Of a DNA stretch of 64,000 nucleotides, positions 5,569-12,326 are shown piece after piece (positions within the stretch are counted from its first letter, which is position 1; the number at the start of each line of letters is the position of its first letter). Location: contig JAHBYC010000010.1 in the NCBI GenBank assembly GCA_019636175.1, positions 19,737 through 83,736 of the forward strand. The letters are read 5' to 3'. The DNA comes from Caulobacter sp. (GTDB lineage Bacteria > Pseudomonadota > Alphaproteobacteria > Caulobacterales > Caulobacteraceae). A model generated the notes under the pieces. The model saw only the letters and a list, made by a program, of their open reading frames with translations, was not told where the DNA came from and did not search any database. The translations under genes and the position numbers were made by a program.

Positions 5569-5668
5569 CCCGCGCCGGAACCGGCCGCTCGATGCGAACG
5601 GCCTCGCGTCCTGAATTGTGGGCCGCCCCCTCGACCTTGGGCCCGGCTGAGGTTACTTGAGCGCGCCC

Positions 5669-7459
5669 ATGCGCCCTCCCGTCCTCGCTCTCAAGGCCGT
5701 CCGCCTCATCGACGGCGCCACCCCCCTGTTCGACGGGGTCGATCTGGCCCTTGAACCCGGCGTGCGCGCCTGCCTGGTCGGTCGCAACGGGGCGGGAAAA
5801 TCGACTCTGATGCGGCTGCTGATGGGCGAGATCCAGGCGGACGGCGGCGAACGCATCGTCACGCCGGGGGCCCGGATCAGCGTGGTCCCGCAGGAGCCGA
5901 AAATCTCCGGCGACACGCTGCTGGACTACGCCATGCTTGGCGGAGCCCAATCCTATGAGGCCGAGGCGGCGCTGCAGGCGCTGGGCGTGGACCCCGCCAA
6001 GCCCGCGCAGGGACTGTCCGGGGGGGAGATCCGCCGCGCCGCCCTGGCCCGCGCCTTCGCCGAACAGCCTGACGTTCTGTTGCTCGATGAGCCGACCAAC
6101 CACCTGGACATCCTGGCCATCGAGACGCTTGAGACCCTGCTCAAGTCCAGTCGCGCCGCCGCCCTGGTGGTCAGCCATGACCGGGCGTTTCTGGAGCGCA
6201 CGACCAGCCGCTGCTTCTGGCTGGAAAGCCGCCGGGTTCGCAAGCTGGACCGGGGCTTTGCCGCGTTTGACGACTGGGCTGAACAGCAGATGGAGGCCGA
6301 GGCGGACGAGCAACGCCGCCTCGACGCCGCGCTGGTCCGCGAAAATCACTGGATGCAGCGGGGCGTCACCGGTCGACGGGCCCGCAATGAAGGACGCCGC
6401 CGGCGACTGGTCGCCATGCGGGAGCAGAAGTCGGAATATCTGCGCCAGGCGCGTGGCGCGTTGACCATGGACATCGCCGTCGCCTCCGCTTCGGGAAAGC
6501 GCGTCGCCGAGGCCAAGGGGTTGTCCAAGGCCTATGGCGACAAGGTGCTGGTCAAGGGCTTCTCGACCCGCATCCAGCGCGGCGACCGCATCGCCATCGT
6601 CGGCCCCAATGGCGCGGGCAAGACGACCCTGGTCAAGCTGTTGCTGGGCGAGCTTTCGCCGGACGCGGGCACGGTGACTCTGGGGACCAACCTGCAGATC
6701 GCCTATATCGACCAGGCCCGCGCCGACCTGGACGACAGCGCCACCCTGTGGGACGCCCTGACGCCCGGCGGCGGCGACCAGGTGATGGTTGGCGATACGC
6801 CGCGCCATGTGGCCGGCTACGCCAAGGACTTCCTGTTTCGCGACAATCAACTGCGCCAGCCGGTGTCGACCCTGTCAGGCGGCGAGCGGGCCCGGCTGCT
6901 GCTGGCCCGGGCCCTGGCCACGCCCGCCAATCTGCTGGTGCTGGATGAGCCGACAAACGACCTGGACATGGAGACCCTTGATCTCCTGGAGGACCTGCTG
7001 GCGGGGTTCGAGGGCACTCTGGTTCTGGTCAGCCACGACCGTGACTTTATCGACCGCCTTGCAGGCTCGACGATCGGCCTGAACGGGGCGGGCGAGGTCG
7101 TCGAGACCCCGGGCGGCTGGAGCGACTTTCTCAGTCAGAACCCCGGCTTCTTCACCAGCGGCATGGTCTCGCAAACGCCTGCCCGTAAAACCGCTCCGGC
7201 GCCCCCGCCCCAGCCCAAGAAGGCCTCCAAGCTCTCCTACAAGGATCAGCGCCGACTTGAGGAAGTCGAGCGGCTGGCGACCGAACTGCCCCTGGAAATA
7301 GCCCGGCTGGAGAAGGAGCTTGAGGATCCGGATCTCTATAGCCGCGACCCTGCCGGCTTTGACCGGACCATGAAGGCGCTGGAAGCGGCCAGGGCGACCC
7401 TCGAGGCGGCGGAAGAAGACTGGCTCCTGCTCGAGGAAAAGCGCGAGGCGTTGTCCTAG
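5669..7459 (+). CDS. uup: ABC-F family ATPase (Uup-like)
   Basis: A 596-residue soluble protein with two ABC cassettes and no membrane segments, the ABC-F plan. Cassette 1 has Walker A GRNGAGKST, signature LSGGE and Walker B LLLDEPTNHLD; cassette 2 has GPNGAGKTT, LSGGERARLLLARAL and VLDEPTNDLD. The inter-domain linker is basic (RRARNEGRRRRL), as expected for ribosome-binding ABC-F proteins, and the C-terminal 70 residues are charged and coiled-coil-like, as in Uup. A TTG at 5657 with a closer GAGG is an alternative start. The stop codon TAG is shared with the palindromic repeat that follows. Likely acts on translating ribosomes or DNA junctions; the exact subfamily is inferred. Confidence 0.88.
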   Translation: MRPPVLALKAVRLIDGATPLFDGVDLALEPGVRACLVGRNGAGKSTLMRLLMGEIQADGGERIVTPGARISVVPQEPKISGDTLLDYAMLGGAQSYEAEAALQALGVDPAKPAQGLSGGEIRRAALARAFAEQPDVLLLDEPTNHLDILAIETLETLLKSSRAAALVVSHDRAFLERTTSRCFWLESRRVRKLDRGFAAFDDWAEQQMEAEADEQRRLDAALVRENHWMQRGVTGRRARNEGRRRRLVAMREQKSEYLRQARGALTMDIAVASASGKRVAEAKGLSKAYGDKVLVKGFSTRIQRGDRIAIVGPNGAGKTTLVKLLLGELSPDAGTVTLGTNLQIAYIDQARADLDDSATLWDALTPGGGDQVMVGDTPRHVAGYAKDFLFRDNQLRQPVSTLSGGERARLLLARALATPANLLVLDEPTNDLDMETLDLLEDLLAGFEGTLVLVSHDRDFIDRLAGSTIGLNGAGEVVETPGGWSDFLSQNPGFFTSGMVSQTPARKTAPAPPPQPKKASKLSYKDQRRLEEVERLATELPLEIARLEKELEDPDLYSRDPAGFDRTMKALEAARATLEAAEEDWLLLEEKREALS

Positions 7460-7507
7460 AGCCTGTTCCCATTATGGCGGAACCGCCAAATGGGTAAAAC
7501 AGGCTCT
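7457..7507. repeat. REP-like palindromic element, copy 1
   Basis: The element begins at the stop codon of the ABC-F gene. The outer arms GAGCCTGTT (7459-7467) and AACAGGCTC (7498-7506) pair perfectly, then CCCATT with AATGGG, then TGGCGG (7475-7480) with CCGCCA (7483-7488) around an AA loop. The plan matches the element at 29631-29679 with compensating base changes in the stems. It may double as a transcription terminator. Confidence 0.75.
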
Positions 7508-7521
7508 AAACGAAGCATGAC

Positions 7522-7568
7522 GAGCACGATTCAACGATTAGACGGTTCCGTTTAATCGCATCGTGCTC
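7522..7568. repeat. REP-like palindromic element, copy 2
   Basis: The outer arms GAGCACGAT (7522-7530) and ATCGTGCTC (7560-7568) are a perfect 9-base inverted repeat. Inside are CGATTA / TAATCG and ACGGTTCCGT. It lies only 15 bases after copy 1 and shares its nested-stem plan, including a GAGC outer start and an inner ATTA, but its stems have a different sequence. Confidence 0.7.
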
Positions 7569-7770
7569 TGGCGCGCCAATTGACGTGCGCGCATGCGGTC
7601 CGATCAGAGGGCCAGGACATATCTGTGGATATCGAGAAGTGCTTTCTTGTCAGGCCCTTGCCGTCAAAATCAACAGCCCGCCCACATCTTATCCCCAAGG
7701 TTGGAGAACAGTATTCACAGCGGGCCGATACAAGACGGTTGCTGCATAAACGAAGTCGTCGCACAGTCAA

Positions 7771-8027
7771 CCCGTCGAGAGGAACCGCGGCGCGGGCGAG
7801 ACGGGAAACCGGAAGGCCAGGCGAGCGGAACGGGTCCAGGCCTAAGGACCGAAGGGAGACCTTCGGAAACCGGTCAGGAGCCGGTCGGATGAAGACCAGA
7901 GCAATCTGGACCCCCACGCCGACCATGACCACTCGGCCGCCAGACCCCTTCGGGGATCTGGGTAAGAGGGTGGCGCCGCCGGGCAACCGGATGCGTCGCC
8001 CTCTTGCTCATTTGGGCGACCCATTTT
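7771..8027 (+). ncRNA. Candidate structured RNA (orphan leader or small RNA) upstream of an ABC importer
   Basis: Successive hairpins can be read on the plus strand: CCCGTC/GACGGG (7771-7776 with 7800-7805); CCGAAGG-GAGA-CCTTCGG (7849-7866); ACCGG/CCGGT (7869-7885); CCAGA-GCAA-TCTGG (7896-7909) enclosed by GGTCGG/CCGACC (7883-7888 with 7919-7924); CCAGA-CCC-TTCG-GGG-TCTGG (7940-7961); and a long arm AAGAGGG/CCCTCTT (7964-7970 with 7999-8005) capped by CCGG-GCAA-CCGG. Four loops are GNRA or UUCG tetraloops on this strand only. A weak TGGG-CGA-CCCA hairpin followed by TTTT (8013-8027) could end or attenuate the transcript 80 bases before the ABC operon. It does not fit TPP, cobalamin, RNase P, SRP or tmRNA signatures that I know. 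Existence of the RNA is inferred. Confidence 0.45.
8013..8027 (+). terminator. Weak candidate intrinsic terminator or attenuator
   Basis: A 4-bp hairpin TGGG-CGA-CCCA is followed by TTTT. On its own it is weak, but it follows directly after the long tetraloop-capped hairpin ending at 8005, so the two together could stop transcription or expose a switch before the gene at 8107. Confidence 0.3.
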
Positions 8028-8106
8028 CAGCGAATCCGGTTCCAACATTCCCTTGGCGCGCCCCGTCGCGCGACCTACCCTCTGTCACATCAGGATGGAG
8101 GGTTCG

Positions 8107-9105
8107 ATGACGTCACGCCGCATGGTTCTCGGCGCCGGTCTCGCGGCGCTGGCGGCCGCCTGCTCAAAGGCGCCCGCGACCCCGCCCGGCCGGACCCTCA
8201 TTCGCTTCGCCACCGACTGGAAGGCCCAGGCCGAGCACGGCGGCTTCTATCAGGCCCTGGCGATGGGCGAGTACGCCAGGCGCGGGCTGGAGGTGGAGAT
8301 CAAACAGGGCGGTCCCGGGGTCAATGTGCCGCAACTCCTGGCCGCCGGCGCGGTCGAGCTCGGCATGGGCTCCAACGGTTTCATCGCCCTGAACCTGGTC
8401 AAGGAGGGCGTTCCTGTGAAGGCGGTCGCGGCCTTCATGCAAAAGGACCCGCAGGTCCTGCTGGCCCACCCCGGCCAGGGTGTCGCCTCCATCGCCGACA
8501 TGAAGGGCCGGCCGATCCTGCTGTCGGCAGCGTCGCGCGAAGCCTTCTGGGTCTGGTTGCGGGCCAAGTACGGGTTCAGCGATGACCAGATCCGCGCCTA
8601 CAACTACAGCGCCGCGCCCTTCCTCGCCGACAAGCGCGCGATCCAGCAGGGCTACCTGTCGAGCGAACCCTACACCATCGAGAAGGAGGCCGGCCTCAAG
8701 CCGGAGGTATTCCTGCTCGCTGACGAGGGCTATCCCGGCTACGCCACCATGGTCCTTGCCCCTGACAAGCTGATCAATCGCAACCCCGACGCCATCCGCG
8801 GCTTCATCGAGGCCAGCGCCATCGGCTGGAGGGAATACCTCAAGGGAGACCCGTCGGCGGCCGACGCCCTGATCCTGAAGGACAATCCGGAGATGACCCC
8901 GGAGCTGCTGGCCTACGCACGCAAGGTGATGAACCAGTACGGCATCGTCGACAGCGGCGACGCCGCCACCCTGGGTCTGGGCGCCATGACCGACGCCCGC
9001 TGGGCAGAGTTCTTCAAGGTCACCTCCGAACAGGGCGTCTACCCCAAGGACATGGCCTACAAGGACGCCTACACCCTGCAGTTCGCGGGGCCCGCCGCCA
9101 AGTGA
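8107..9105 (+). CDS. ABC transporter substrate-binding lipoprotein (NMT1/THI5-like)
   Basis: A 332-residue solute-binding protein from ATG 8107 with a GGAGGG ribosome binding site. The N-terminus combines a twin-arginine-like SRR with a lipobox (LAAAC, Cys at about residue 20), so it is probably a membrane-anchored periplasmic lipoprotein. The mature start TLIRFATDWKAQAEHGGFY and VNVPQLLAAGAVELGMGSN segments fit the NMT1/THI5/TauA/SsuA fold. This fold serves importers of thiamine precursors, riboflavin, taurine or sulfonates, and I cannot choose among them. It is the first gene of a three-gene importer operon and lies 80 bases after the candidate structured RNA. Confidence 0.88.
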   Translation: MTSRRMVLGAGLAALAAACSKAPATPPGRTLIRFATDWKAQAEHGGFYQALAMGEYARRGLEVEIKQGGPGVNVPQLLAAGAVELGMGSNGFIALNLVKEGVPVKAVAAFMQKDPQVLLAHPGQGVASIADMKGRPILLSAASREAFWVWLRAKYGFSDDQIRAYNYSAAPFLADKRAIQQGYLSSEPYTIEKEAGLKPEVFLLADEGYPGYATMVLAPDKLINRNPDAIRGFIEASAIGWREYLKGDPSAADALILKDNPEMTPELLAYARKVMNQYGIVDSGDAATLGLGAMTDARWAEFFKVTSEQGVYPKDMAYKDAYTLQFAGPAAK

Positions 9106-10653: not shown

Positions 10654-11229
10654 ATGGCCATGCGCCCTGGTCTCATCCTTCTGCTGCTCGCCCTGCCCGG
10701 CGCCGCCATGGCGACGGAAGACCGGTATGGACCGCGCCGCGCGTCCGAGCTGACGGTTGCCGGGTCGGCCACGAGGCCGCAGGCCTATGGCGGACCGACG
10801 CTGACCTGGTCGGGCAAGGCGCAGGCCTCGGTTCCGGACGCGCGGCGGTCGGTTGCCGCAGCGCCAACGGCCCCGGTCAGGTCCCCGCCGGCCTATGCTG
10901 ACCGCGGCGCAGCGCCTGCGCCCGCGCCGCCAGCGTCCCTGCCGACCAGCCTCTATGACGGCCCCGCCGCGCCGGCCCAGGCCGCGCCCCCGTCACCGCC
11001 GGTTGCCGCCTCGCCCTATGGCAATTACCAGCCCCGAGCCTATTCGGTGGTTCGCGAGTATGGCGGGACGCCTGACCGCATTCCGGCCCCGCCGCCGCAG
11101 AGCGCCTTCACCGGTCCCGAGGTCTCGCTGATGCCCGGACTGCTCGGCGCGGCGCCTCCGGATGATCCGGCGGGCGATGCCGACACAGAAGACCCCGAAG
11201 CCCGCCGCCCGGCCAAGGACAAGAAATGA
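10654..11229 (+). CDS. Exported Pro/Ala-rich protein of unknown function
   Basis: A 191-residue protein with a clear signal peptide (MRPGLILLLLALPGAAMA, cleavage after AMA). The start is ATG 10654 or the in-frame ATG two codons later. The mature chain is low-complexity, rich in Pro, Ala, Tyr and Ser, and its C-terminus is acidic then basic (DADTEDPEARRPAKDKK). It resembles intrinsically disordered periplasmic or cell-wall linker proteins. Its stop overlaps the DUF2336 start by ATGA, so the two are probably cotranslated. No family recognised. Confidence 0.65.
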   Translation: MAMRPGLILLLLALPGAAMATEDRYGPRRASELTVAGSATRPQAYGGPTLTWSGKAQASVPDARRSVAAAPTAPVRSPPAYADRGAAPAPAPPASLPTSLYDGPAAPAQAAPPSPPVAASPYGNYQPRAYSVVREYGGTPDRIPAPPPQSAFTGPEVSLMPGLLGAAPPDDPAGDADTEDPEARRPAKDKK

Positions 11230-12326
11230 GTTCCGATCCCGCCCGCCTGCACGAACTGATCGAACTGGCCCATGAAGGGTCCAGTGAGCGTCGCCGCGAC
11301 CTGCTGCGCGGCCTGACCGACGCCTTCTTCGGCCGGGAGTCCCACGGGCCGGCTGAAATGGCGCTGTTCGATCAGGTCCTGACCCAGCTGTCCGGGGAAA
11401 TGGAGGTCGCGGTCCGCGCCGAGCTGTCGGGGCGCATCGCCGAGCGATCCGATGCGCCAGGCGGGCTGATGCGTCGTCTGGCCCATGACGAGATCAGCGT
11501 CGCCGGTCCGGTGCTGCGCCAGGGGCGCGGCCTGTCCGACGAAGAGCTGCTGAGCGTCGCCCGCACCCAGGGACAAGACCATCTGGCGGCCATTTCCCAA
11601 CGCGCCCACGTGCCGTCATCGGTCAGCGACGTCATTGTCGAGCGCGGTGATGAGGACACCTTGAGCGTCCTTATCGGCAACAACGGCGCCGATCTGTCGC
11701 GGGAAGCCCATGAGCGGCTGGTCGACCGCGCGACCGAAAGCCCGCGCCTGCAGGAGGGGCTGGTCAACCGCCGCAGCCTGCCGGTCGATCTGCTCAACGA
11801 AATCTACTTCGTGGCCGAGGCCCGCATTCGCGAACAGATCCTCGCCCGCAACGCCACGATCGACCCCAAGGAACTGGAGGTCGCGCTCGAGCGCGGCCGC
11901 AAACGCCTCGCCGCGCGTGACGGCGCCTTGCCGGCAGACTATGCGAAAGCCGAAGCCGAAGTCGCGGCCATGGCCGCCCGGGGTGAACTGGGCCCACGCA
12001 CACTGGCGGCCCTTTTGCGAGGCCGGCAGACCACCAGGTTTCTGGTCGCCCTGTCGCAGCTGGCGCACGTCGATTTCCACACGGCCCGGCGCATTGTCGA
12101 GGGCCGCGAGCTGGACGCTCTGTCGATCATCTGCAAGGCCGCCGGCTTCGAGCCGAGCCTGTATCTGACCTTCGCGGTGCTGATGCTGGACAGCGACCCC
12201 GACGCGATGGCCAAGGCGCGCCAGTACGGCCAGCTCTACAATGAGCTGCCGCTGGAGGTTGCCCAGCGGACCATTCGCTTCTGGCGGATGCGCCGTCAGA
12301 CGGGCGACGTCTCGGCGGCGGCCTGA
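11226..12326 (+). CDS. DUF2336 family protein
   Basis: A 366-residue soluble, almost wholly helical protein. Motifs such as LMRRLAHDEISVAGPVL and DLLNEIYFVAEARIREQIL are typical of DUF2336, a HEAT-repeat-like family common in Caulobacterales and Rhizobiales. I know of no biochemical function for the family; some members have been linked to stress or cell-cycle phenotypes in alphaproteobacteria, which I do not press here. Start ATG 11226 overlaps the preceding secreted-protein gene by four bases. Confidence 0.85.
   Translation: MSSDPARLHELIELAHEGSSERRRDLLRGLTDAFFGRESHGPAEMALFDQVLTQLSGEMEVAVRAELSGRIAERSDAPGGLMRRLAHDEISVAGPVLRQGRGLSDEELLSVARTQGQDHLAAISQRAHVPSSVSDVIVERGDEDTLSVLIGNNGADLSREAHERLVDRATESPRLQEGLVNRRSLPVDLLNEIYFVAEARIREQILARNATIDPKELEVALERGRKRLAARDGALPADYAKAEAEVAAMAARGELGPRTLAALLRGRQTTRFLVALSQLAHVDFHTARRIVEGRELDALSIICKAAGFEPSLYLTFAVLMLDSDPDAMAKARQYGQLYNELPLEVAQRTIRFWRMRRQTGDVSAAA

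Follow-up and report, generated by a model that had tools for sequence, protein, structure and literature searches.

A conserved structured RNA of Caulobacteraceae with a predicted promoter of its own, probably acting in trans

A structured RNA of about 240 nucleotides (nt) was found before an NMT1/THI5-like importer gene in a 64,000-nt stretch of a Caulobacter sp. genome (GenBank assembly GCA_019636175.1, contig JAHBYC010000010.1, positions 19,737 to 83,736), which is called the window here and in whose numbering all positions are given. It is probably (about 60% in our estimate) a stand-alone, independently transcribed structured RNA of Caulobacteraceae that acts in trans, most likely by binding a protein, and that is possibly controlled by DnaA. 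In the proposed scheme, an activator-type promoter (TTGC, 17-bp spacing, weak -10 element) would drive the RNA gene, and TTnTCCACA-like boxes upstream of it, arrayed in phase with the DNA helix, would bind the activator, for which DnaA is the best candidate. The transcript would begin with a closed multibranch domain (P1 enclosing P2 to P5), followed by a small hairpin with a GNRA or UNCG loop and a long terminal hairpin. It would act in trans, by binding a protein or serving as a ribonucleoprotein scaffold, rather than through an antisense seed.

The trimmed element occupies positions 7773 to 8013 of the plus strand (about 241 nt) and folds with a z score of -5.83. For the slightly longer segment 7771 to 8027, the plus strand gave a folding energy of -132.6 kcal/mol and a z score of -5.04, which none of 200 shuffles equalled, and the minus strand gave a z score of -2.08, with 3 of 200 shuffles as good. 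Five tetraloops lie within the RNA: GAAA at 7805-7808, GAGA at 7856-7859, GCAA at 7901-7904, UUCG at 7949-7952 and GCAA at 7983-7986. An earlier reading, made without searches (the sequence-only reading), had listed successive plus-strand hairpins and the last four of these loops, and all of them are present where it placed them; it had missed the GAAA loop. Its plain row of perfect stems did not hold, since a closing stem encloses a multibranch domain in the 5' part and some stems are imperfect.

Relatives of the RNA were compared in two alignments, A1 (21 full-length Caulobacter homologues; L017 and five type-B-like sequences excluded) and A6 (39 sequences, comprising full-length matches from a second genus, presumed to be Phenylobacterium, and 18 Caulobacter sequences; L007, L010, L015, L017 and the type-B sequences left out). 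Covariance model R1 was built from Caulobacter and R2 with Phenylobacterium added, and the window copy belongs to both. The parts of the RNA are as follows, with the number of base pairs that change on both sides.

About 7773/7774 to 8013, plus strand: the structured RNA (predicted transcript), supported by the fold, full-length matches to R1 and R2, and covariation.
7774-7782 with 7929-7937, plus strand: P1, closing stem; A1 helices 1 and 2, 2 of 6 pairs.
7786 to 7827, plus strand: P2, long hairpin with a GAGA/GAAG internal loop and a GAAA tetraloop; near-invariant in Caulobacter.
7832 to 7882, plus strand: P3 (7832-7836 with 7878-7882) around the P4 hairpin with a GAGA loop (7846-7871); A1 helices 5 to 7, 6 of 13 pairs.
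7883 to 7924, plus strand: P5, stem with a GCAA hairpin; A1 helices 8 and 9, 6 of 8 pairs.
7942 to 7959, plus strand: P6, hairpin with a UUCG loop here and GCAA elsewhere; A1 helix 10, 4 of 6 pairs.
7960 to 8009, plus strand: P7, long terminal hairpin with a GCAA or GCGA loop; A1 helix 11, 8 of 20 pairs; A6 helix 9, 10 of 16 pairs.

Structure and conservation were computed directly. On the RNAalifold structure of A1, 26 of the 65 pairs change on both sides, compared with a shuffled mean of 15.0 (standard deviation 1.9) and at most 12 when the partners were slid. In A6 the count was 42 of 63, compared with 22.7 in shuffles (standard deviation 2.2) and a maximum of 24 with slid partners. None of 500 shuffles reached the count of either alignment. 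The share of cells that pair was 96.3% in A1 and 87.1% in A6, the latter being biased upward because the structure was derived from the same alignment. Since P2 is near-invariant in Caulobacter, it shows no covariation there; after the addition of Phenylobacterium, two-sided changes appear in 5 of its 13 pairs (helices 3 and 4). The compensatory base changes thus exceed chance and strongly support a conserved structured RNA in two genera. Rfam 15 gave no match at gathering score across the window, and a permissive search of 7440-8200 gave five sub-threshold matches only (E 0.27 to 2.7). The sequence-only reading had proposed an unassigned functional structured RNA and a covariance search for homologues in Caulobacteraceae, and both the absence of an Rfam family and the covariation in the homologues agree with it.

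The loops are conserved in identity as well as in position. Among the 21 Caulobacter sequences, the P4 loop is GAGA in all, and the P2 and P7 loops are GNRA in 20 and 19, respectively. The P6 loop is GNRA in 10 and UNCG in 6, and this exchange of UUCG and GCAA speaks for a structural role of the loop. The conserved unpaired letters, assessed by eye in A6, are the tetraloops, the P2 internal loop, short linkers and a UUGCU tail at the 3' end; no long invariant unpaired stretch was seen in that alignment. The nature of these letters favours a protein or a tertiary partner over a long antisense seed. Likewise, because structure, tetraloops and the G/A internal loop are conserved and no long invariant unpaired stretch was seen, a protein-binding RNA is favoured over an antisense one.

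Conservation of the RNA stops at about 8013, which leaves 94 nt to the ATG at 8107. The small final hairpin with TTTT that had been noted earlier is present directly after the RNA (about 8014 to 8027) and shows partial conservation: of 22 Caulobacter loci, 14 have a stem of three or more pairs at this place, where shuffles give 8.1, and 5 have TTTT within 30 nt. Two kinds of atypical copy were observed. A longer variant (type B: L021, L022, L023 and L024, plus L026; 272 to 274 and 326 nt) has an unchanged promoter, 5' end and terminal hairpin and a rebuilt middle, and an otherwise normal copy in genome G008 (L017, positions 1534-1789) carries a short insert near the P2 tip.

The upstream side of the RNA holds the following elements, together with a further one before the importer gene.

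7681 to 7720, plus strand: box array, partly degenerate in this strain, with CCCACA at 7681-7686, TTATCCCCA at 7689-7697 and ATTCACAG at 7713-7720.
7739 to 7744, plus strand: putative -35 element TTGCTG of the RNA promoter.
7762 to 7767, plus strand: putative -10 element CACAGT, after a 17-bp spacer.
8053 to 8079, plus strand: separate promoter-like element before the importer gene, TTGGCG at 8053-8058 and CCTACC at 8074-8079.

From 79 upstream regions, 43 that cover both genera and both locus types (described below) were chosen for alignment A8 and for R3, which models the promoter region on sequence alone. The -35 TTG and the second (A) and sixth (T) letters of the -10 element are invariant in 43 of 43, the spacer is 17 bp, and the RNA begins 6 to 7 bases after the -10 element. 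The RNA therefore seems to have its own sigma70-like promoter, with a predicted start that coincides with the RNA start. A search of 18 genomes with R3 gave 19 matches with E <= 4e-8. An RNA copy directly follows every one of them, and 7 of these copies had no part in building the model. The next match had E 1e-3, and the five genomes without the RNA gave nothing below 0.028. At the sensitivity of R3, and in these 18 genomes, the predicted promoter architecture is dedicated to this RNA. The importer gene has a different element before it: TTG(G/A)CG followed after 15 to 19 bases by (C/G)CTA was found between RNA and importer at 14 of 22 Caulobacter loci (the 21 of A1 and L017, without type B; 0.03 expected) and was absent from 8 of 22. 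Given this enrichment, the importer in those 14 loci seems to have its own promoter.

The box array lies upstream of the -35 element at a nearly fixed distance, with TTnTCCACA as the best box. Its phasing, again computed directly, was measured in 27 Caulobacter regions and in 52 of 53 Phenylobacterium regions, L110 being excluded as its match starts inside the RNA; box pairs were counted at 9 or more of 10 letters, and expectations came from mononucleotide shuffles. TCCAC pairs spaced 11 bp apart were present in 23 of 27 Caulobacter regions (0.15 expected), in 16 of 27 Phenylobacterium importer-locus regions (0.18 expected) and in 18 of 25 second-locus regions (0.13 expected). Other spacings from 7 to 20 were seen in 0 to 3 regions. 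In the same order of region sets, spacing 22 was found in 15, 9 and 7 regions, spacing 23 in 5, 1 and 10, and spacing 21 in 5, 0 and 0. The reverse-complement motif at spacing 11 was not found in any of the three sets. The window's own array gave an R3 match with E 2.6e-11, as a copy that belongs to the model. A repeat search found no direct repeat upstream of the RNA in this strain, because the boxes are short and degenerate and the period becomes visible only across relatives. The exact two-box pattern gave 16 matches in 8 genomes, two of which (in G211 and G142) lie just before an RNA copy; the window's own array is not among them.

These boxes resemble DnaA boxes, which have the form TTATCCACA in E. 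coli, TT(G/C)TCCACA in high-GC Actinomycetes and TGATCCACA in Caulobacter (PMC4285127, in part). With at most one mismatch, TTATCCACA occurs in 14 of 27 Caulobacter regions (0.25 expected) and in 16 of 52 Phenylobacterium regions (0.19 expected), a resemblance that is enriched but does not extend to all regions. As in DnaA box arrays, TTnTCCACA-like boxes stand in one orientation with an 11-bp period, that is, a 9-mer plus 2 bp; in Thermotoga, like-oriented DnaA boxes 2 bp apart gave the most complex (PMC10316083, in part). The present array differs in that its second box is usually TCCACC and in that it precedes an RNA promoter, not an origin. From this likeness, DnaA appears to be the best candidate for the activator that would bind the array. 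Tentatively, and with considerable doubt, DnaA might bind the phased boxes head to tail and switch on the RNA, which might in turn signal DnaA activity, or act back on it, during the cell cycle of Caulobacteraceae.

The RNA is patchy in Caulobacter and nearly general in Phenylobacterium. Blastn detected it in 26 of 75 genomes of the same genus (27 copies), and R1 matched 30 of the 75, although the match in G001 is a 30-nt hairpin only. Over the family, R1 matched 77 of 249 genomes in 3 of 22 genera. R2 matched 99 of 101 Phenylobacterium genomes, many with two full-length copies. Over the order, 16 of 150 genomes matched R2; three of them lie outside the family, and these weak matches (E 6e-5 to 5e-4) were treated as chance hairpins. 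Over the class, 2 of 289 matched, namely the window's own genome and one weak match. The absences in scans of more than 40 genomes are not proof of absence, because such scans use stricter filters and lose weak matches. An exact 24-base pattern from the RNA matched 18 public contigs, including Caulobacter ginsengisoli and Caulobacter sp. SLTY; the remaining ones were mostly metagenome-assembled genomes labelled Caulobacter, Caulobacteraceae or Caulobacterales, with one Brevundimonas vancanneytii. The window genome (87% complete) has a single copy. In a third genus (g3), R1 and R2 mostly matched the terminal hairpin only, upstream of the importer gene; in L105, L106, L107 and L109 of that genus, little beyond this hairpin is recognisable, possibly reflecting a decayed or very divergent copy. 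Genome G053 holds two different copies (L004 and L027) on separate contigs, both followed by a binding-protein gene of their own, and may be a mixed bin.

In the window, the RNA stands between an ABC-F gene and the importer genes, the order being ABC-F gene, RNA, NMT1/THI5-like binding protein, ATPase and permease. Its two neighbours are given below.

5657 to 7459, plus strand: upstream neighbour, ABC-F type ATPase gene (Pfam ABC_tran twice, ABC_tran_CTD).
8107 to 9105, plus strand: downstream neighbour, NMT1/THI5-like substrate-binding protein gene (Pfam PF09084, E 5.3e-28).

Of the 27 Caulobacter copies, 26 have this binding-protein gene downstream on the same strand at a distance of no more than 5 kb, and the contig of the 27th ends after the RNA. 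The first gene after the RNA differs, for example a MASE1 hybrid histidine kinase in G058 and a TonB receptor in G008. For Phenylobacterium, 53 loci were chosen with a preference for two-copy genomes in few contigs; their split into 28 and 25 is therefore not a frequency. The importer locus accounts for 28 of them, with the binding-protein gene next in 18 and a hybrid kinase next in 10; the other 25 lie elsewhere, and 17 of these adjoin an RNase D-like gene. The second-locus copies match the full-length model and carry the same promoter. In 22 of the 25, the next called gene (simple open reading frame caller) is convergent, which indicates that the RNA needs no downstream gene.

The binding-protein gene was present in 74 of 75 Caulobacter genomes, compared with 30 for the RNA. 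Twenty stretches were fetched, 19 from genomes without an R1 match and one (L158) from an RNA-positive genome. At the 19 RNA-lacking loci the binding-protein gene is kept with no trace of the RNA there, and a divergent copy was sought and rejected, as R2 gave nothing below E 0.5; 11 of the 19 were also folded and inspected by eye. One RNA-lacking genome (G026) gave a weak R2 match elsewhere (E 8.4e-5). Both the second loci and the binding-protein genes without the RNA weaken an importer-specific function. The suggestion of the sequence-only reading that the RNA acts with the importer draws its support from the synteny; its small-RNA alternative fits. In several of the RNA-lacking Caulobacter loci (among L144-L157), another stretch, approximately TGCG(G/A)C(G/C)AAACGACACA by eye, recurs in the gap that precedes the hybrid kinase.

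The other idea of that reading, a riboswitch-like leader, fared poorly. If the RNA were a cis-acting leader, either riboswitch or attenuator, for the importer or any other gene that follows it, and the second-locus copies were relics or decoys, this would account for its position before one and the same binding-protein gene in Caulobacter, Phenylobacterium and (by a partial match) a third genus, and for a compact multibranch fold with the start codon 94 nt away in the window. Such a leader is nevertheless unlikely: copies facing a convergent gene keep the full-length match and the shared promoter, the importer has a separate promoter-like element at 14 of 22 loci, the RNA seems to have its own promoter, the first downstream gene varies, and the binding-protein gene persists without the RNA at 19 loci. 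A base-pairing trans-acting small RNA of the usual Hfq or C-rich-loop kind is rather improbable. Caulobacter crescentus does have many small RNAs, with 133 non-coding RNAs reported (PMC4117421, in part), the same C-rich P6 loop recurs in 12 of 21 Phenylobacterium copies (by eye), and the 3' UUGCU is near-invariant. However, GNRA and UUCG prevail in the P6 loop of Caulobacter, A6 showed by eye no extended unpaired stretch that is conserved, and TTTT follows the RNA at only 5 of 22 Caulobacter loci.

Very stable palindromic hairpins and two copies in many Phenylobacterium genomes could also suggest structured DNA or a mobile element, such as a palindromic repeat, a transposon end or a nuclease guide RNA. 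Such an origin is very improbable, since the plus strand folds better than the minus strand, this genome (87% complete) has only one copy, the loci are recurrently syntenic, blastn found no match in plasmids or phages, and the 16 neighbour proteins scanned included no transposase or RNA-guided nuclease (one was an RNase D-like exonuclease). A small protein is hardly credible: frames are open across the region in this strain, but none is open in all relatives, each of the six being broken in at least 15 of the 39, and lengths modulo 3 are mixed among them.

Several observations weigh against a stand-alone RNA acting in trans under a DnaA-like activator. The synteny of RNA and importer is deep, which would not be required of a purely trans-acting RNA, and the 3' tail UUGCU, near-invariant across the 39 sequences, could pair with something. 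R1 found no RNA in 45 of 75 Caulobacter genomes, and it is accordingly not a core RNA of that genus. The window strain's own box array is degenerate, and the Caulobacter DnaA-box form TGATCCACA fits worse than the E. coli form, occurring with at most one mismatch in only 7 of 27 and 3 of 52 regions. The generic promoter consensus scan of the window misses the RNA promoter on account of its weak -10 hexamer; this miss and the poor hexamer are also what suggest an activator. Finally, the window scan found no canonical terminator and no T-run lies directly after the terminal hairpin, so the 3' end was inferred from the point at which conservation stops.

Some further features of the window were observed beside these. 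An inverted repeat with 11-nt perfect arms 30 nt apart (7457-7508) flanks the stop codon of the ABC-F gene and is possibly its terminator. A second one with 9-nt arms (7522-7578) is followed by the palindrome TGGCGCGCCA, the 47-nt unit occurring once in the window. After the permease gene, an open reading frame of 191 amino acids without a Pfam match (10654-11229) precedes a DUF2336 gene (11226-12326).

Full-text searches returned no description of this RNA in the titles or beginnings of abstracts listed, supplementary tables of non-coding RNAs lying outside their scope, and none of the names Caulobacter, Phenylobacterium and Alphaproteobacteria occurs in the main text of PMC11109978. The present RNA would add a class without an Rfam entry, with a covariation-supported structure and with matches in 99 of the 101 genomes examined of one genus. 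Were the boxes DnaA boxes, the array would link replication control to a structured RNA in a family that serves as a bacterial cell-cycle model. Many Phenylobacterium genomes have two genes for the RNA and part of Caulobacter has none, and the patchy presence in Caulobacter offers natural presence/absence pairs.

The 6S RNA and the CsrB-like RNAs are stand-alone structured bacterial RNAs that bind proteins. They serve as the working analogy for the RNA proposed here, with a promoter of their own, a compact conserved fold, occurrence in nearly all members of a clade and no long antisense seed seen; the present RNA differs in falling into no Rfam 15 family at gathering score. It also resembles the non-coding RNAs of C. 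crescentus, 33 of whose non-coding start sites are cell-cycle regulated, in being likewise an intergenic RNA gene (PMC4117421 and PMC4287350, both in part).
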